IMG/VR virus record: IMGVR_UViG_3300036864_000136
Coordinates: 1 to 45,756 of that record
DNA: 45,756 bases
Strand: one strand, 5' to 3'
DNA from: a virus
Shown here: piece after piece, positions 28,201 to 45,756 of the stretch
Layout of the letters: each line of letters begins with the position of its first letter
Position numbering within the stretch: position 1 is the first letter of the stretch
Notes under the pieces: generated by a model
The model's input: only the letters and a program-made list of their open reading frames with translations
Told to the model about the DNA's origin: nothing
Database searches by the model: none
Program-made: the position numbers and the translations under genes

Positions 28201-28642
28201 AATAAAATTAGCGGCAGTAATTCGGGAGTCTGCGACACATCGCCCCGAACTTAATAACCTAGAAGACCTTCGCTCGTCGAGGTTGAATCCCCACGAAAAT
28301 CTTTTAAGTTTTCAGTTCGAGCGGGGCTTGGGAGAAGTCGGGGTGGCCGCCCAAACTTCTTTCCATGTCTCGCACTTGCCGAACTACTACCGCTAACTTA
28401 GGTTTTCCCCTATTCTCTCCCAGGATCCAAAGGTGAAAGAAAAACCCTGGGAAAGATGTAGGGGGAAGCAACTGTATGGGAAACTCACTACCCGTTCAGC
28501 GCTCACCACGAGTATAACCCACCAGCGACGTGAGGTAACCCCCCACAAGCCAGTAGGACCGTAAGAAACCAGTCAAACCGTATGTGGAAGAGATCACTCT
28601 GGCGAGTTGTGCCACCTTGCGTGTCGGCCACGGATACGCTAG
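28201..28642 (-). ncRNA. Candidate structured RNA / long leader without genes
   Basis: No gene fits this roughly 440-base gap. It holds several hairpins. One pairs CCCCTA/TAGGGG and TCCCAGG/CCTGGGA (plus-strand 28408-28474). AGAAG/CTTCT around GGG/CCC lies at 28333-28360. A long-range CCCCGAACT pairs with AGTTCG-agc-GGGG (28243-28326). GCGTATC/GACACGC around CGTGGCC lies at 28620-28641. It lies directly before the GntR-like gene on the minus strand. It could be a non-coding RNA, a regulatory leader or a replication origin. The strand is inferred from its neighbours. Confidence 0.5.
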
Positions 28643-29212: not shown

Positions 29213-29368
29213 TCACCTGTTGTTCGGAAAGCCCTTAGGGCTTTTAATGATGTGACACTTTCGCTTATGCCAAATAACCAGCGACTTGTACTTAGTTCCA
29301 ATCTGGATTTCTCCCCATGGAGTTGGAATGTAGATCTTAGTTCCAACCTTTGCGTAAAGCTTCTTCAT
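29213..29368 (-). CDS. Small basic protein (51 aa)
   Basis: ATG 29368 overlaps the stop of the SNF2 helicase gene by one base. The sequence MKKLYAKVGTKIYIPTPWGEIQIG has an SH3-like small beta-barrel pattern and is net basic. Likely co-translated with the helicase; its role is unknown. Confidence 0.65.
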   Translation of the reverse strand: MKKLYAKVGTKIYIPTPWGEIQIGTKYKSLVIWHKRKCHIIKSPKGFPNNR

Positions 29369-31437
29369 TAACCCTCCAGGAACTTCCTCATAGCCTCAGC
29401 CAAGTCGACATCGGCTTGGAAACCATCGAGCATGTTCTTCTTCTGCTCCTGAATCGCATCGATCAATTCAGTTGCTGTGCCTTCACAATGGAGAATGTGC
29501 ACGATGGATTCGTACTCCGAGTCGATGCGTCGGAGCCGGTCAATTGTTTGCTCTTCCTTGCCGGGATTCCATTCCCGCTCGATGCAAAGAAGTTGCTGAG
29601 CACCATTCAAGTTGAGGCCAACTTGTGCAGTCTGGTACTGACAAATCAGCACATCATACTGATGCTCGCCAACCTTTGTGTGGTTGGTATTGAAGTCATC
29701 GATGTAGCCACGGCGAACATGATCCGGCACGTCACCGGTGATTTTAGCGACCCTGAGGTTGTTCATCTCGCACCGACGCTCAAGTTCTGCGATAACACTC
29801 TTGAACATCGAGAAGACAACAATTCGGTCGCCATCTTCTACAGCCTCATTGACAATTTGTTCTGACTCGTCCATCATGATGGACTCACCAATTGGCGGAG
29901 TCCCCGGAGGCGGAAAGATGACGCGAGGATCAATGCACGGTCCTGGAAGTCCCTGCTCATCGAGACATTCTGGATCGTGCCAACATCCCTTGATCTGAAT
30001 TCCATCCGGCCAACTTGCAGCCTGACGCATTCGCGTGTACCAGGCGAGAACTGCTTGAGTTGTCATTTGCTCCGTGTCAGAGAAAGCAAGCTTCGCTTTG
30101 TCGCGGAGTTCTGTGATGAACTTCGTCTGACGTGGGTACTTCTCCGGATCGAGCTCAAGCCAGTGATGTTTGATTTCCTGGGGCGGCATAACAACTCCAG
30201 CACTTTCACGTGTGCGAGCCGTGTACTTCATGTCTAGCTTCTTGAGGAGCCTATCAGATCCGCCAGACCCAAAGGTGTAGACGTACTTGTTTGTCGCGTA
30301 GTCGTACTCTTTTGTGCAGTAATCATCGAGGAAGTTCTTTTCTGACGGGAACATTTCTCGATCGATCATATTGAGAGGAGGCCAAATCTCAGCTGGCTTA
30401 TTGAGAATTGGTGTACCCGTTGCTACGTAGAAATTCTTGACCGAGCAGAAATCGCTGAACTGTTCGGCTCGAAACTCGCAGGCTGAACAAATGGTGTCGA
30501 AGCCACGAACATCGAAAGTCTGATGGCCACAACTTGGGCAACGGTTCTCGGCAAAGACAAGTTCACGAACCTTCTGAGTGGTGACAGACTTGGCACCCTT
30601 TAGAACATGACCCTCGTCACAGAAGATGGCGTCGAAACAACAATCCTTGAGCTTCTCATGGATTGAATTGTCCTTGCGCCAGACTTCATAGTTGGTGATG
30701 ACGATGGCTTCTGGCATGTGCTTGATAACTTCAAGGAGTTCAACCTTAATTCCCTTGAGAGTTTGATTCAGCACATGCACGAAAGTCGGGTTGGTCCACT
30801 GCTTAAAAGCTCGCTCAAAGTCTGGGAGCACCGATTTTGGCGTGAAGATAAGAACCTTGTTGGCCTTACCTTGAGCACGCAACAAGTCGATGGTCATAAT
30901 CATTTCAAGCGTCTTGCCCAGGCCAGGCTTGTCACCGAGAATTCCCCGCTCGGCTGCAACGAGTCGATGAGCTCCGTCAAGTTGGTGAGGGAGTGCCTTC
31001 TTACCGTTGACACCGATGCGCCAGGGAAATTCCTTAGTTCGTTCATCGAGAAGCTTTTGTTGGGTGAGGTACCTTTCGCGTGAAGCCAGTTCAGCTAGAA
31101 GTCGTAGCCGCTCACGTTCGTAAGCTTCCTTGTTACGAAAGTCGAGTCGGTTGATTTGAGTGTTGCGAGAAATAGCTTCATCAATTGGCCGACGCTCGTG
31201 AAGAAGCACGTCAATCTGACGGCGGAGTTCTGCGATTTGTCCGTTGAGGAGAGCCTGAGAGATTTCGAGAGCGTCATTCTCGTTATCGCGAAGAGTGATG
31301 ACACCTTCTATGTCATCAATTCGTACGTTCAAAAAAGCCAAACGATCGAAGTCTTCGTTCGGCATCAACTTGCTGAGGCGAGCCTCACTCTCGGAGAATT
31401 GTTCTTCGAACGCTGACATGTCGAGTCGTTCGGGCAT
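29368..31437 (-). CDS. SNF2/SF2-type DNA helicase or translocase
   Basis: A 689-residue protein. Motif I is GDKPGLGKTLEM (about residue 172), motif Ia FTPKSVLPDF, motif II DEGH, motif III GTPILN. The second RecA lobe has VVFSMFKSV, ITGDVP and QVGLNLNGAQQL, then a Q-x-x-x-R-x-x-R motif as EEQTIDRLRRI. A zinc knuckle (CPSCGHQ ... CSAC) is inserted in lobe 1, and the first 130 residues are coiled coil. Phage SNF2 proteins are thought to aid replication or recombination. It follows a chain of tiny zinc and HTH genes. Confidence 0.88.
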   Translation of the reverse strand: MPERLDMSAFEEQFSESEARLSKLMPNEDFDRLAFLNVRIDDIEGVITLRDNENDALEISQALLNGQIAELRRQIDVLLHERRPIDEAISRNTQINRLDFRNKEAYERERLRLLAELASRERYLTQQKLLDERTKEFPWRIGVNGKKALPHQLDGAHRLVAAERGILGDKPGLGKTLEMIMTIDLLRAQGKANKVLIFTPKSVLPDFERAFKQWTNPTFVHVLNQTLKGIKVELLEVIKHMPEAIVITNYEVWRKDNSIHEKLKDCCFDAIFCDEGHVLKGAKSVTTQKVRELVFAENRCPSCGHQTFDVRGFDTICSACEFRAEQFSDFCSVKNFYVATGTPILNKPAEIWPPLNMIDREMFPSEKNFLDDYCTKEYDYATNKYVYTFGSGGSDRLLKKLDMKYTARTRESAGVVMPPQEIKHHWLELDPEKYPRQTKFITELRDKAKLAFSDTEQMTTQAVLAWYTRMRQAASWPDGIQIKGCWHDPECLDEQGLPGPCIDPRVIFPPPGTPPIGESIMMDESEQIVNEAVEDGDRIVVFSMFKSVIAELERRCEMNNLRVAKITGDVPDHVRRGYIDDFNTNHTKVGEHQYDVLICQYQTAQVGLNLNGAQQLLCIEREWNPGKEEQTIDRLRRIDSEYESIVHILHCEGTATELIDAIQEQKKNMLDGFQADVDLAEAMRKFLEG

Positions 31438-31805: not shown

Positions 31806-31958
31806 GCGGGCTTATTTCCCATTTGACAGGGGGCCCTCGCTCCATGACACGGCAGGCCACTACCCGCCAGGCCCCTTTACGCTCCTGCGTCGCTCCAAGA
31901 AACCTGTCCGGCATTGTCCAGCCTAAGTCATTCCGCCCCCTGTCAAATGCGCGCCCGC
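31806..31958 (-). ncRNA. Structured element R2, relative of R1 at 44740-44900
   Basis: On the minus strand a 15-bp perfect stem (CATTTGACAGGGGGC, plus-strand 31935-31949, with GCCCCCTGTCAAATG, 31820-31834) is capped outside by GCGGGC/GCCCGC (31953-31958 and 31806-31811). Inside lie GGAATGACTTAGGCTG, CGACGCAGGAG and GGAGCGAGG. R1 has the same three blocks in the same order and the same two-part stem with other bases. It stands just before a ribosome site. Cis-acting leader RNA is the main reading; the strand follows the gene order. Confidence 0.6.
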
Positions 31959-40071: not shown

Positions 40072-40424
40072 AAATCACGCCGAGAACAGTTTGGTTTATT
40101 GTCGCCGGAGGAATTGTGAAGCAACTTTGGAAGTTCGTTGTCGCGAAGCTTAAGAACGAGCCAGTACTTTTGGTTGCGTTCATCGCTATTGTCACCCAAG
40201 CTGGGCAGCGGGCTTTGAGTGAGGGACATTTTACTTTTACCCTATGGATGACCTACCTGTTTCAAATGGTGATGGCCACTGTGGCGAGGGAATTGGTAGT
40301 ACCTGGCGGAAAGTTCGCGGAAGTCGAAGGACATCGTGATAAGTTGGGGGAGGATTTGAACCGACTTCTTCAAAAGAGCTACGAGGAGTCTGACATTTCT
40401 AAGGAGAATGGGAGTTCTCTGTGA
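40065..40424 (+). CDS. Membrane protein, possible holin
   Basis: A 119-residue protein from GTG 40065. It has two or three hydrophobic stretches (TVWFIVAGGIVKQLWKFVV, VLLVAFIAIVTQAG and FTLWMTYLFQMVMATVA) and a charged C-terminal helix. The size and layout suit a holin, and the endolysin is in the same operon. It competes for that role with the small protein at 19294. Confidence 0.55.
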   Translation: MVKITPRTVWFIVAGGIVKQLWKFVVAKLKNEPVLLVAFIAIVTQAGQRALSEGHFTFTLWMTYLFQMVMATVARELVVPGGKFAEVEGHRDKLGEDLNRLLQKSYEESDISKENGSSL

Positions 40425-41155
40425 CTGAAACAATCACCGACGTCGAACTGGACCTCATCTTCTTCATCGAACGTTTTCACGCCAGTACTGGTCAAGCACC
40501 GACCGATGCACAATTGAACCAGCGTTTCACTTTGACGCCGGAAGTTCTAGAGAAGTTCAAGACAAACCCGAAAGTTCTGACCAGTCTCAAGCATCGCGGG
40601 ATTAATTACCCTGCCGCTGCGGACAAGTTCACACCTGAACAAATGCACGCAGCGTCGGTGATGTTGGACATGGTCGACCGACGCAGCGACGAGAAGAAAC
40701 TCCGTGACCTGGGCATCACTACGAGACAATGGTCGCAGTGGCTTTTGGACGACGAGTTTGCAAGCTACTTGAGCGAAAGGTCCGAAAAGCTCCTGGCCAA
40801 TAGTTTGCCCGAAGCTCACAAAGGTCTTCTCAAAGGTGTCAGGAACGGTAACATTGCCGCGGTCAAAACAATGTACGAAGTGACTGGCCGCTACCGTCCG
40901 AATGAAGAAGAGCAAATTGACGTCCGACGCGTACTACACACTTTCATCGAGGTGATTCAGCGCTACGTTAAAGATCCCATCATGTTGCACGCCATCGCGA
41001 TGGACCTGTCACAAGTGGCGAGCGCAGAAAGTTACAGCACCGGTCTGGCAAATCAAATGATGGGTGGTGCTCAAGACTTCCGCATGCGTAGTATTACAGG
41101 CACCGCAGTGGAGTTGCCGCAAATTCCAAGCCTTGAAGGGTTGGAGAATGAGTAA
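40421..41155 (+). CDS. terS: Terminase small subunit (phBC6A51-like HTH)
   Basis: A 244-residue protein whose GTG overlaps the previous stop. The centre KKLRDLGITTRQWSQWLLDDEFASYLSERSEKLLANSLPE followed by NGNIAAVKTMYEVTGRY is the layout of the phBC6A51-type TerS: an HTH, a helical stretch, then A-x-K-x-x-x-E-x-TGR-Y. It recognises phage DNA and hands it to TerL, whose start lies about 4 kb downstream after the lysis and tail genes. Confidence 0.78.
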   Translation: MTETITDVELDLIFFIERFHASTGQAPTDAQLNQRFTLTPEVLEKFKTNPKVLTSLKHRGINYPAAADKFTPEQMHAASVMLDMVDRRSDEKKLRDLGITTRQWSQWLLDDEFASYLSERSEKLLANSLPEAHKGLLKGVRNGNIAAVKTMYEVTGRYRPNEEEQIDVRRVLHTFIEVIQRYVKDPIMLHAIAMDLSQVASAESYSTGLANQMMGGAQDFRMRSITGTAVELPQIPSLEGLENE

Positions 41156-44739: not shown

Positions 44740-44900
44740 GAAAAGTTTGAACTCGCTATTTTGTGGGGGGCGGAAAAGCGTAGGCTGACTCGGCCGTGGG
44801 CTCAACTGACCGACGTAGGAGGGAGGGGGAGGCCGCGGTTGAGCCAGTCTGGGCTTTGGAGCGAGGGCCCCCCACAAAATTGGGCGAGTTTAAAGTTTTC
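44740..44900 (+). ncRNA. Structured element R1 before terminase
   Basis: A two-part closing stem: ATTTTGTGGGGGGC (44758-44771) pairs with GCCCCCCACAAAAT (44867-44880), and outside it AACTCGC/GCGAGTT (44750-44756, 44884-44890) plus GAAAA/TTTTC. Inside lie GGAA-N5-TAGGCTG, a GGCTCAAC/GTTGAGCC stem (44799-44806, 44839-44846), CGACGTAGGAG and GGAGCGAGG. R2 at 31806-31958 has the same plan with changed stem bases. It runs from the tail gene stop to the ribosome site of the zinc-ribbon gene. RNA leader, packaging RNA or packaging site are all possible. Confidence 0.62.
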
Positions 44901-44915
44901 GAACTAAGGAGGATC

Positions 44916-45047
44916 GTGAAAGGTAGATGTCCAGAGTGTGGAAGTACGGCAACTAAATCTGGAGGGAAAATTTGGTGTGACGATCCTGATTGCGCTTACG
45001 TTTTTCTAGATTCTACAGAGGAGGATAATTCCCCCCCGGCAGCGTAA
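44916..45047 (+). CDS. Zinc-ribbon protein upstream of and overlapping terL
   Basis: A 43-residue protein from GTG 44916 behind AAGGAGGATC. CPECGSTATKSGGKIWCDDPDC is a classic CxxC...CxxxxC ribbon. It ends DNSPPAA, stopping 10 residues beyond the point where the terL frame is already open. A run of seven C at 45031-45037 lies in the overlap, so a one-base slip here would join the two proteins. Confidence 0.65.
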   Translation: MKGRCPECGSTATKSGGKIWCDDPDCAYVFLDSTEEDNSPPAA

Positions 45048-45756
45048 AATTGGTAGTCTTCATGACGCGTTTGCAGATTTGAGTGAGTCACTTGTCCGAG
45101 TTGCAACTTTCCCAGATATCAATAGTTACATCCCTCACCCTAAACAAAAAAGATTTCATTCCTCACCCGCGCGGACTCGTCTATACATTGGAGGAAACCG
45201 CTCAGGAAAGACTACGGGAGGAATTGTTGAAGATATCTGGTGGCTCACTCGTGAACACCCTTACAGGAAAATTCCTGCTCATCCCATTGCGGGACGAATT
45301 GTTTCTGTTGACTTCATCAACGGCATTTCAAAAATCATCATCCCCCAACTCAAGCAATGGATCCCCCCAAGCAAACTCAGGGGTGGGAGTTGGTTTTCTG
45401 CTTACGACGCCGGGGATCGAGTTCTAAACTTTGACAACGGCTCTTTTGTCGAGTTGATGTCTTACGACCAGGACCTAGACAAGTTCGCCGGTACCAGTCG
45501 TGACTTTATTCACTACGATGAAGAGCCGCCGAAAGATATCTTCACTGAGTGCAAGGCTCGATTGATTGACCGCAAAGGTTCGTCATGGATGACAATGACC
45601 CCCGTCGAAGGAATGACGTGGATCTTTGACGACATCTATGAGCCTGGAATTCTCGGCGATAGTAATATTGCAGTCATCGAAGTTGACATGGCAGAAAATC
45701 CACACCTAGACAAAGAAGAAATCGACAACTTCCTTGGTGGCCTAGACGAAGACGAA
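45028..45756 (+). CDS. terL: Terminase large subunit, N-terminal part (partial)
   Basis: The ATPase half of the packaging motor. Walker A is LYIGGNRSGKTTGGI (base 45181), the adenine-binding-like PHPKQKRFH precedes it, Walker B is FIHYDEEPP (45508), and a coupling-like WMTMTPVEGMTW follows. The frame is open from 45010 and has no ATG/GTG; TTG 45079 has no ribosome site, while AGAGGAGG at 45017 would serve ATT 45028. The start is therefore uncertain. The frame runs off the window end and continues at base 2. Confidence 0.85.
   Translation, partial: MPPRQRKIGSLHDAFADLSESLVRVATFPDINSYIPHPKQKRFHSSPARTRLYIGGNRSGKTTGGIVEDIWWLTREHPYRKIPAHPIAGRIVSVDFINGISKIIIPQLKQWIPPSKLRGGSWFSAYDAGDRVLNFDNGSFVELMSYDQDLDKFAGTSRDFIHYDEEPPKDIFTECKARLIDRKGSSWMTMTPVEGMTWIFDDIYEPGILGDSNIAVIEVDMAENPHLDKEEIDNFLGGLDEDE
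45630..45756. repeat. 127-bp exact terminal repeat of bases 1-127
   Basis: The last 127 bases equal the first 127 base for base, inside terL and without any structural hallmark of a biological end. A length of exactly 127 matches a common assembler k-mer, so this most likely marks a circular or terminally redundant genome that was cut open. Unique length 45,629 bp. Confidence 0.9.

Follow-up and report, generated by a model that had tools for sequence, protein, structure and literature searches.

Two Related Hairpins Upstream of terL and of an SNF2 Helicase Gene as a Candidate Cis-Acting RNA of Metagenomic Phages

Position and Fold of R1

The DNA analyzed here, referred to as the window, is a phage sequence of 45,756 nt. 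The two ends share the same 127 bases (1-127 and 45630-45756), so that it represents a closed genome, cut inside the large terminase gene terL. This gene begins at 45029 on the plus strand (45029-45756) and runs on at window position 1; judging from its homologues, its start codon is probably ATT or one nearby. It is preceded by a zinc-ribbon-like ORF of 43 aa with a GTG start (44916-45047, +), for which a ribosome-binding site, AAGGAGG, was read from the sequence at 44906-44912 (+). The element R1 (44740-44900, +) occupies the gap between the stop codon of the upstream gene (44734) and this ribosome-binding site, directly before the zinc-ribbon ORF and terL, as the original prediction had placed it.

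R1 folds into a long rod-shaped hairpin with a minimum free energy (MFE) of -103.3 kcal/mol, compared with -61.3 ± 4.0 kcal/mol for shuffled sequences (z = -10.5; 0/200 shuffles matched it), and among the 160-nt stretches of the window it folds most strongly. The rod is continuous and consists, in order, of an outer stem, P1, an internal loop, P2, P3, P4 and a tip. In the outer stem, the 5' arm GAAAAGTTTGAACTCGC (44740-44756, +) is imperfectly paired with 44884-44900 (+). An inverted repeat of 74% identity (44740-44770 and 44870-44900) contains the predicted AACTCGC/GCGAGTT stem, which was read directly at 44750-44756 and 44884-44890. Other copies at the R1 locus carry the outer-stem versions TTTGAAC...GTTTAAA or TTTTCGAC...GTTAAAA. 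P1 is the perfect 14-bp stem previously reported (44758-44771 with 44867-44880, +).

Above P1, a 3 × 3 internal loop of the form GNA/GNA is made up of GGA at 44772-44774 (+) and GGA at 44858-44860 (+). P2 (AAAGC, 44775-44779, +, with GCTTT, 44853-44857) is a strongly covarying helix, followed by P3, in which the conserved TAGGCTG (44781-44787, +) is paired with CAGTCTG (44845-44851); P3 is the weakest helix, being paired in 70-71% of alignment cells. A purine-rich one-sided bulge, GCGAGG, lies at 44861-44866 (+); on each strand, 43 nt separate it from the tip. The tip itself, CC-GA-C-GTA-G-GA-GG (44810-44822, +), presumably adopts non-canonical pairing, with tandem G.A pairs under a C-GNA-G triloop cap. 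The conserved blocks noted earlier were located at 44772-44787, 44811-44821 and 44858-44866.

The inner stem of the original prediction, GGCTCAAC/GTTGAGCC, is present at 44799-44806 and 44838-44845 (+), but it competes with P4 (44789-44799 with 44833-44843, +), the pairing of the MFE structure, and the two helices exclude each other. The equivalent of P4 is the version common to R2 and most other copies, whereas the GGCTCAAC/GTTGAGCC pairing was seen only in R1, L015 and L007; between R1 and L007 it carries changes on both sides.

The Second Locus, R2

The second locus that had been claimed was also found. R2 lies on the minus strand at about 31806-31958 including its outer stem (z = -4.4), before two small ORFs and an SNF2-type helicase gene (29368-31437, -). 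Its core spans 31820-31949 (-), with P1 formed by 31935-31949 and 31820-31834 and the blocks arranged as in R1. As at R1, the ribosome-binding site lies outside the hairpin. A profile built from other genomes only recovered both elements in the window, R1 with E = 1.6e-33 and R2 with E = 9.7e-22. Neither element was called as an intrinsic terminator; the sequence after R1 is CGAACTAAGGAGG, with no immediate U tract. Upstream on the same strand as R2, early in the minus-strand operon, a strong intrinsic-terminator-like hairpin was observed at 36832-36807 (-).

Seven genomes were fully read (the window, G003, G005, G011, G016, G001 and G012). Each of them has R1 placed between gene family 28 and terL and, on the opposite strand to R1, an R2-locus hairpin that precedes the SNF2 helicase gene. 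The G011 case rests on position, as the helicase gene beside R2 is cut by the contig end there and only its other part is listed. Small ORFs alone separate R1 or R2 from the respective core gene, terL or the helicase gene, and in L007 the zinc-ribbon-like ORF between R1 and terL is absent. The covariance model gave a score to six of these R2-locus hairpins: strong for the window and G016, good for G003 (E = 7.6e-8) and G011 (E = 2.2e-5), and weak for G005 (E = 0.0083) and G001 (E = 0.21). The R2 hairpin of G012 received no score from the model, and those of G001 and G012 were picked by position and fold strength. A further R2 candidate was found in the partial contig G006.

The core of R2 in the window is 79% identical to the R1 core of G003 and 62% identical to R1 of the window itself. 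Four other R2 cores form a group of their own, of a shorter type. The long core is therefore present at both sites, which look interchangeable, as if this core had been moved or converted between them. Its presence at both sites makes a role tied to terL or packaging unlikely and a role common to both operons likely.

Distribution in Related Phages

A covariance model built from seven copies gave matches close upstream of terL in another 11 distinct phage contigs (L007, L008, L010, L011, L012, L014, L015, L016, L056, L079 and L086). Copies scoring the same as those of L008 or L012 were present in L009, L013 and L033, and the copy in L017 was weak (E = 0.0158). In total, 14 distinct full-form copies were available for comparison, all from the one clade in which the element occurs. 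Contigs with a more distant terL gave no match to the model, nor did Jasmine, DS1 and MW202795, and no DNA-level match to R1 or R2 was obtained among cultured phages. The collections searched may leave out records close to the window.

Among 296 Streptomyces genomes and 395 genomes of the same class, the sole match was a contig of 46.4 kb from an assembly of Streptomyces griseosporeus (L086, NZ_BNBR01000011.1). It has a G+C content of 51% and carries a terminal repeat of 132 bases. This contig looks like a complete relative of the window phage and is perhaps a contaminant of the assembly. The carrier phages are probably actinobacterial, and they are almost unknown outside metagenomes. Broad hairpin patterns retrieved no further contigs, and a search with SNF2 helicase peptide patterns returned nothing, which reflects a limit of those patterns. 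The relatives that do not carry the element (G020, G021, G014, DS1 and Jasmine) have strong hairpins of unrelated sequence, some of them terminator-like.

No known RNA family was recognized, in agreement with the original prediction: a search of the whole window against Rfam 15 yielded nothing up to E = 1, and literature searches returned no description of the R1/R2 element. A search for tRNA and tmRNA was likewise negative. A self-cleaving ribozyme or a trans-acting small RNA would account for the conserved unpaired purines and for two copies per genome, and is nevertheless highly improbable, as the Rfam search included the ribozyme families, the element is a single rod with neither junction nor pseudoknot, and its position is tied to operons.

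Selection on the Fold

Covariation was determined in alignments of different dependence on structure. In the structure-free MAFFT alignment A3, 88.8% of cells pair and two-sided changes are seen in 18 of the 32 pairs, with a covariation score of 0.509 compared with 0.235 ± 0.028 for shuffled and at most 0.116 for slid controls. When the 14 copies were fitted to the model, an alignment that leans towards structure, 91.2% of cells pair, with 22 two-sided pairs (89 cells) and a covariation score of 0.600 versus 0.213 after shuffling. The stem co-changes are thus real, and the claim of selection on folding was upheld by covariation above both kinds of control. Homologues were found and their paired positions co-vary, the opposite of what the original prediction had named as grounds for abandoning it. 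A protein-coding explanation of the conservation was rejected, since 11 of the 14 copies contain stops in all three frames; the element is therefore not protein coding.

The fold is kept by selection on the sense (coding) strand. At the paired positions of alignment A5, G-U outnumbers A-C by 60 to 4, a count that may be inflated, as the structure-fitted alignments A5 and A6 inflate pair counts; the model score is 130 bits for the sense versus 20 bits for the antisense orientation. The coding strand is identified as the folded strand on these two grounds, and a cruciform or other DNA-symmetric element was rejected on the 60:4 ratio.

We read the folding molecule as RNA. The alternative is a single-stranded DNA hairpin of the top strand, serving as a start of replication or transcription on ssDNA. 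Such a hairpin would tolerate G-T pairs, and the tip chemistry fits DNA equally well; C-GNA-G loops and tandem G.A pairs are stable in DNA too. It is considered very unlikely, as the element is always on the coding strand between co-directional genes, lies just before the ribosome-binding site in both window copies, and has a recurrent G-U pair in the R1 outer stem that suits RNA.

The geometry of the rod is precise. At the junction of P1 and P2, GNA lies opposite GNA in 11 of the 14 copies, and the loop is probably stacked and helix-like; the other three copies carry Watson-Crick-pairable AAA/TTT, AAT/ATT (which requires an alignment shift of one column) and ACG/CGT at this site. Just 3' of the loop lies a purine-rich bulge of 5-6 nt, with GCGAGG or a variant of it as its sequence. 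Most copies have a tip of C-GNA-G on top of tandem GA; in L079 this tip has been replaced. Each strand spans 41-46 nt from bulge to tip in the 13 full-form copies whose tip is retained; for five short R2-locus copies, in which the bulge was set by hand, the distance is 49-52 nt.

Possible Functions

R1/R2, strongly covarying and precise in its geometry, constitutes an undescribed structured RNA family. Both copies quite probably belong to the wide class of cis-acting intra-operonic mRNA elements. The best explanation overall, advanced tentatively, is that R1 and R2 represent one new cis-acting RNA, each copy being embedded in a long multi-gene phage transcript; co-transcription of the genes around them was deduced from gene order.

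The original prediction had suggested a pRNA- or pac-like packaging role, considered here as a pac or cos DNA site or as a pRNA-like RNA for the terminase. R1 always adjoins terL and, like phi29 pRNA, is a structured phage RNA with a packaging gene nearby. This role is not sustained and appears most improbable, however, as the other conserved site precedes the SNF2 helicase gene and is distant from the packaging genes. A pac or cos site would be single, whereas two conserved sites are present per genome, and the G-U bias speaks against a double-stranded DNA site. Unlike pRNA, the element is a single rod without the pRNA domains, and one of its two sites is unrelated to packaging. pRNA also goes with a phage without a terminase small subunit, whereas a small-subunit-like gene is present here (40421-41155, match to PHROG 24579, E = 1.6e-8). 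In the related isolate Jasmine, the 1330-bp terminal repeat lies upstream of the counterpart of this gene, away from terL.

Translation control, the other role suggested, is possible but not favored. As a translational operator, the rod would be bound by a phage protein that represses or activates the next gene, in keeping with the ribosome-binding site that directly follows it in both copies. Yet both ribosome-binding sites are outside the hairpin, and the core is interchangeable between sites whose next genes differ: at R1 these are the zinc ribbon or terL, at R2 small ORFs or the helicase. This reading is accordingly improbable.

More weight can be given to antitermination. Bacteriophage HK022 carries related antiterminator RNA copies, putL and putR, one in each divergent operon (PMC9378689), and R1 and R2 likewise are related cis RNAs that one phage carries in a pair of divergent operons. 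By analogy, the nascent rod may bind RNA polymerase, directly or with a phage protein, which would enable read-through of the remaining late operon in the case of R1 and of the remaining early operon in that of R2. The interchangeable cores agree with this scheme, and the conserved bulge and tip at near-constant spacing would suit a large protein partner. On the other hand, put RNAs are promoter-proximal and about 70 nt long, with two stem-loops, whereas R1 and R2 are single rods that appear to lie deep in operons, about 5.5 kb and 7 kb, respectively, from the divergent region on the gene map. Furthermore, the best early-strand terminator-like hairpin (36832-36807) lies upstream of R2. Put-like antitermination is therefore regarded as rather unlikely, although it ranks second. 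More doubtful still is a bolder version, a new protein-independent class of put-like RNA that would rewire the actinobacterial RNA polymerase through matching early and late copies, with the element R3 described below as a second module.

We favor mRNA processing or stabilization first, ahead of put-like antitermination and, third, a translational operator. The sites cleaved by RNase III in phage T7 (R0.3-R1.3 and R18.5) are irregular intergenic hairpins of polycistronic mRNAs in both the early and late regions; each is a long hairpin between a gene stop and the next ribosome-binding site, and one lies near the large terminase gene. R1 and R2 are similarly intercistronic irregular hairpins in presumably polycistronic phage mRNA, and both window elements are flanked by a stop codon on one side and the following ribosome-binding site on the other. 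By this analogy, a processing or stabilizing hairpin is the most likely single role, though it is put forward with considerable reserve. T7 sites are about 60 nt long and have no conserved tip, whereas R1 and R2 measure 100-160 nt, with conserved loops and a near-constant distance from bulge to tip, and their cleavage is putative. The RNase III sites of E. coli and T7 are not known to need a conserved tip; the conservation of bulge and tip therefore points to a more specific partner. The uninterrupted helices of R1 and R2, at most about 15 bp, are short for RNase III, and this length also counts against an RNase III site.

The rod is probably bent at its purine bulge, and one shared factor probably recognizes it by way of bulge and tip. 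In the processing or stabilization model, the hairpin would uncouple the downstream core block from the variable genes that precede it, and this block would gain a protected, structured 5' leader. With two interchangeable copies in opposite operons, the hypothesis of a shared factor is directly testable, and R1/R2 could reveal how actinophages control long operons.

A Third Structured Element

A third structured RNA family, R3, unrelated to R1 and R2, was observed at 28208-28396 (-); it shares the strand of R2 and lies about 3.5 kb farther downstream. Its conserved blocks are TTAGCGGC...GGCAAGTGCGAGC...GGCCAC...CGCAGACTCC...GCCGCTAA. Further copies were located at L109:545-647 (+), L112:3816-3942 (-), L117:13355-13488 (-), L120:7889-7986 (+), L123:4047-4188 (-) and L196:2615-2715 (+). 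Across seven sequences, 11 of 21 pairs showed two-sided changes, and R3 may carry a variable side branch. Just before it, at 28400-28480 (-), lies a strong hairpin, CTTCCCCCTA..TTTCCC..GGGAAA..AGGGGAAAACC, which is also found in several relatives.
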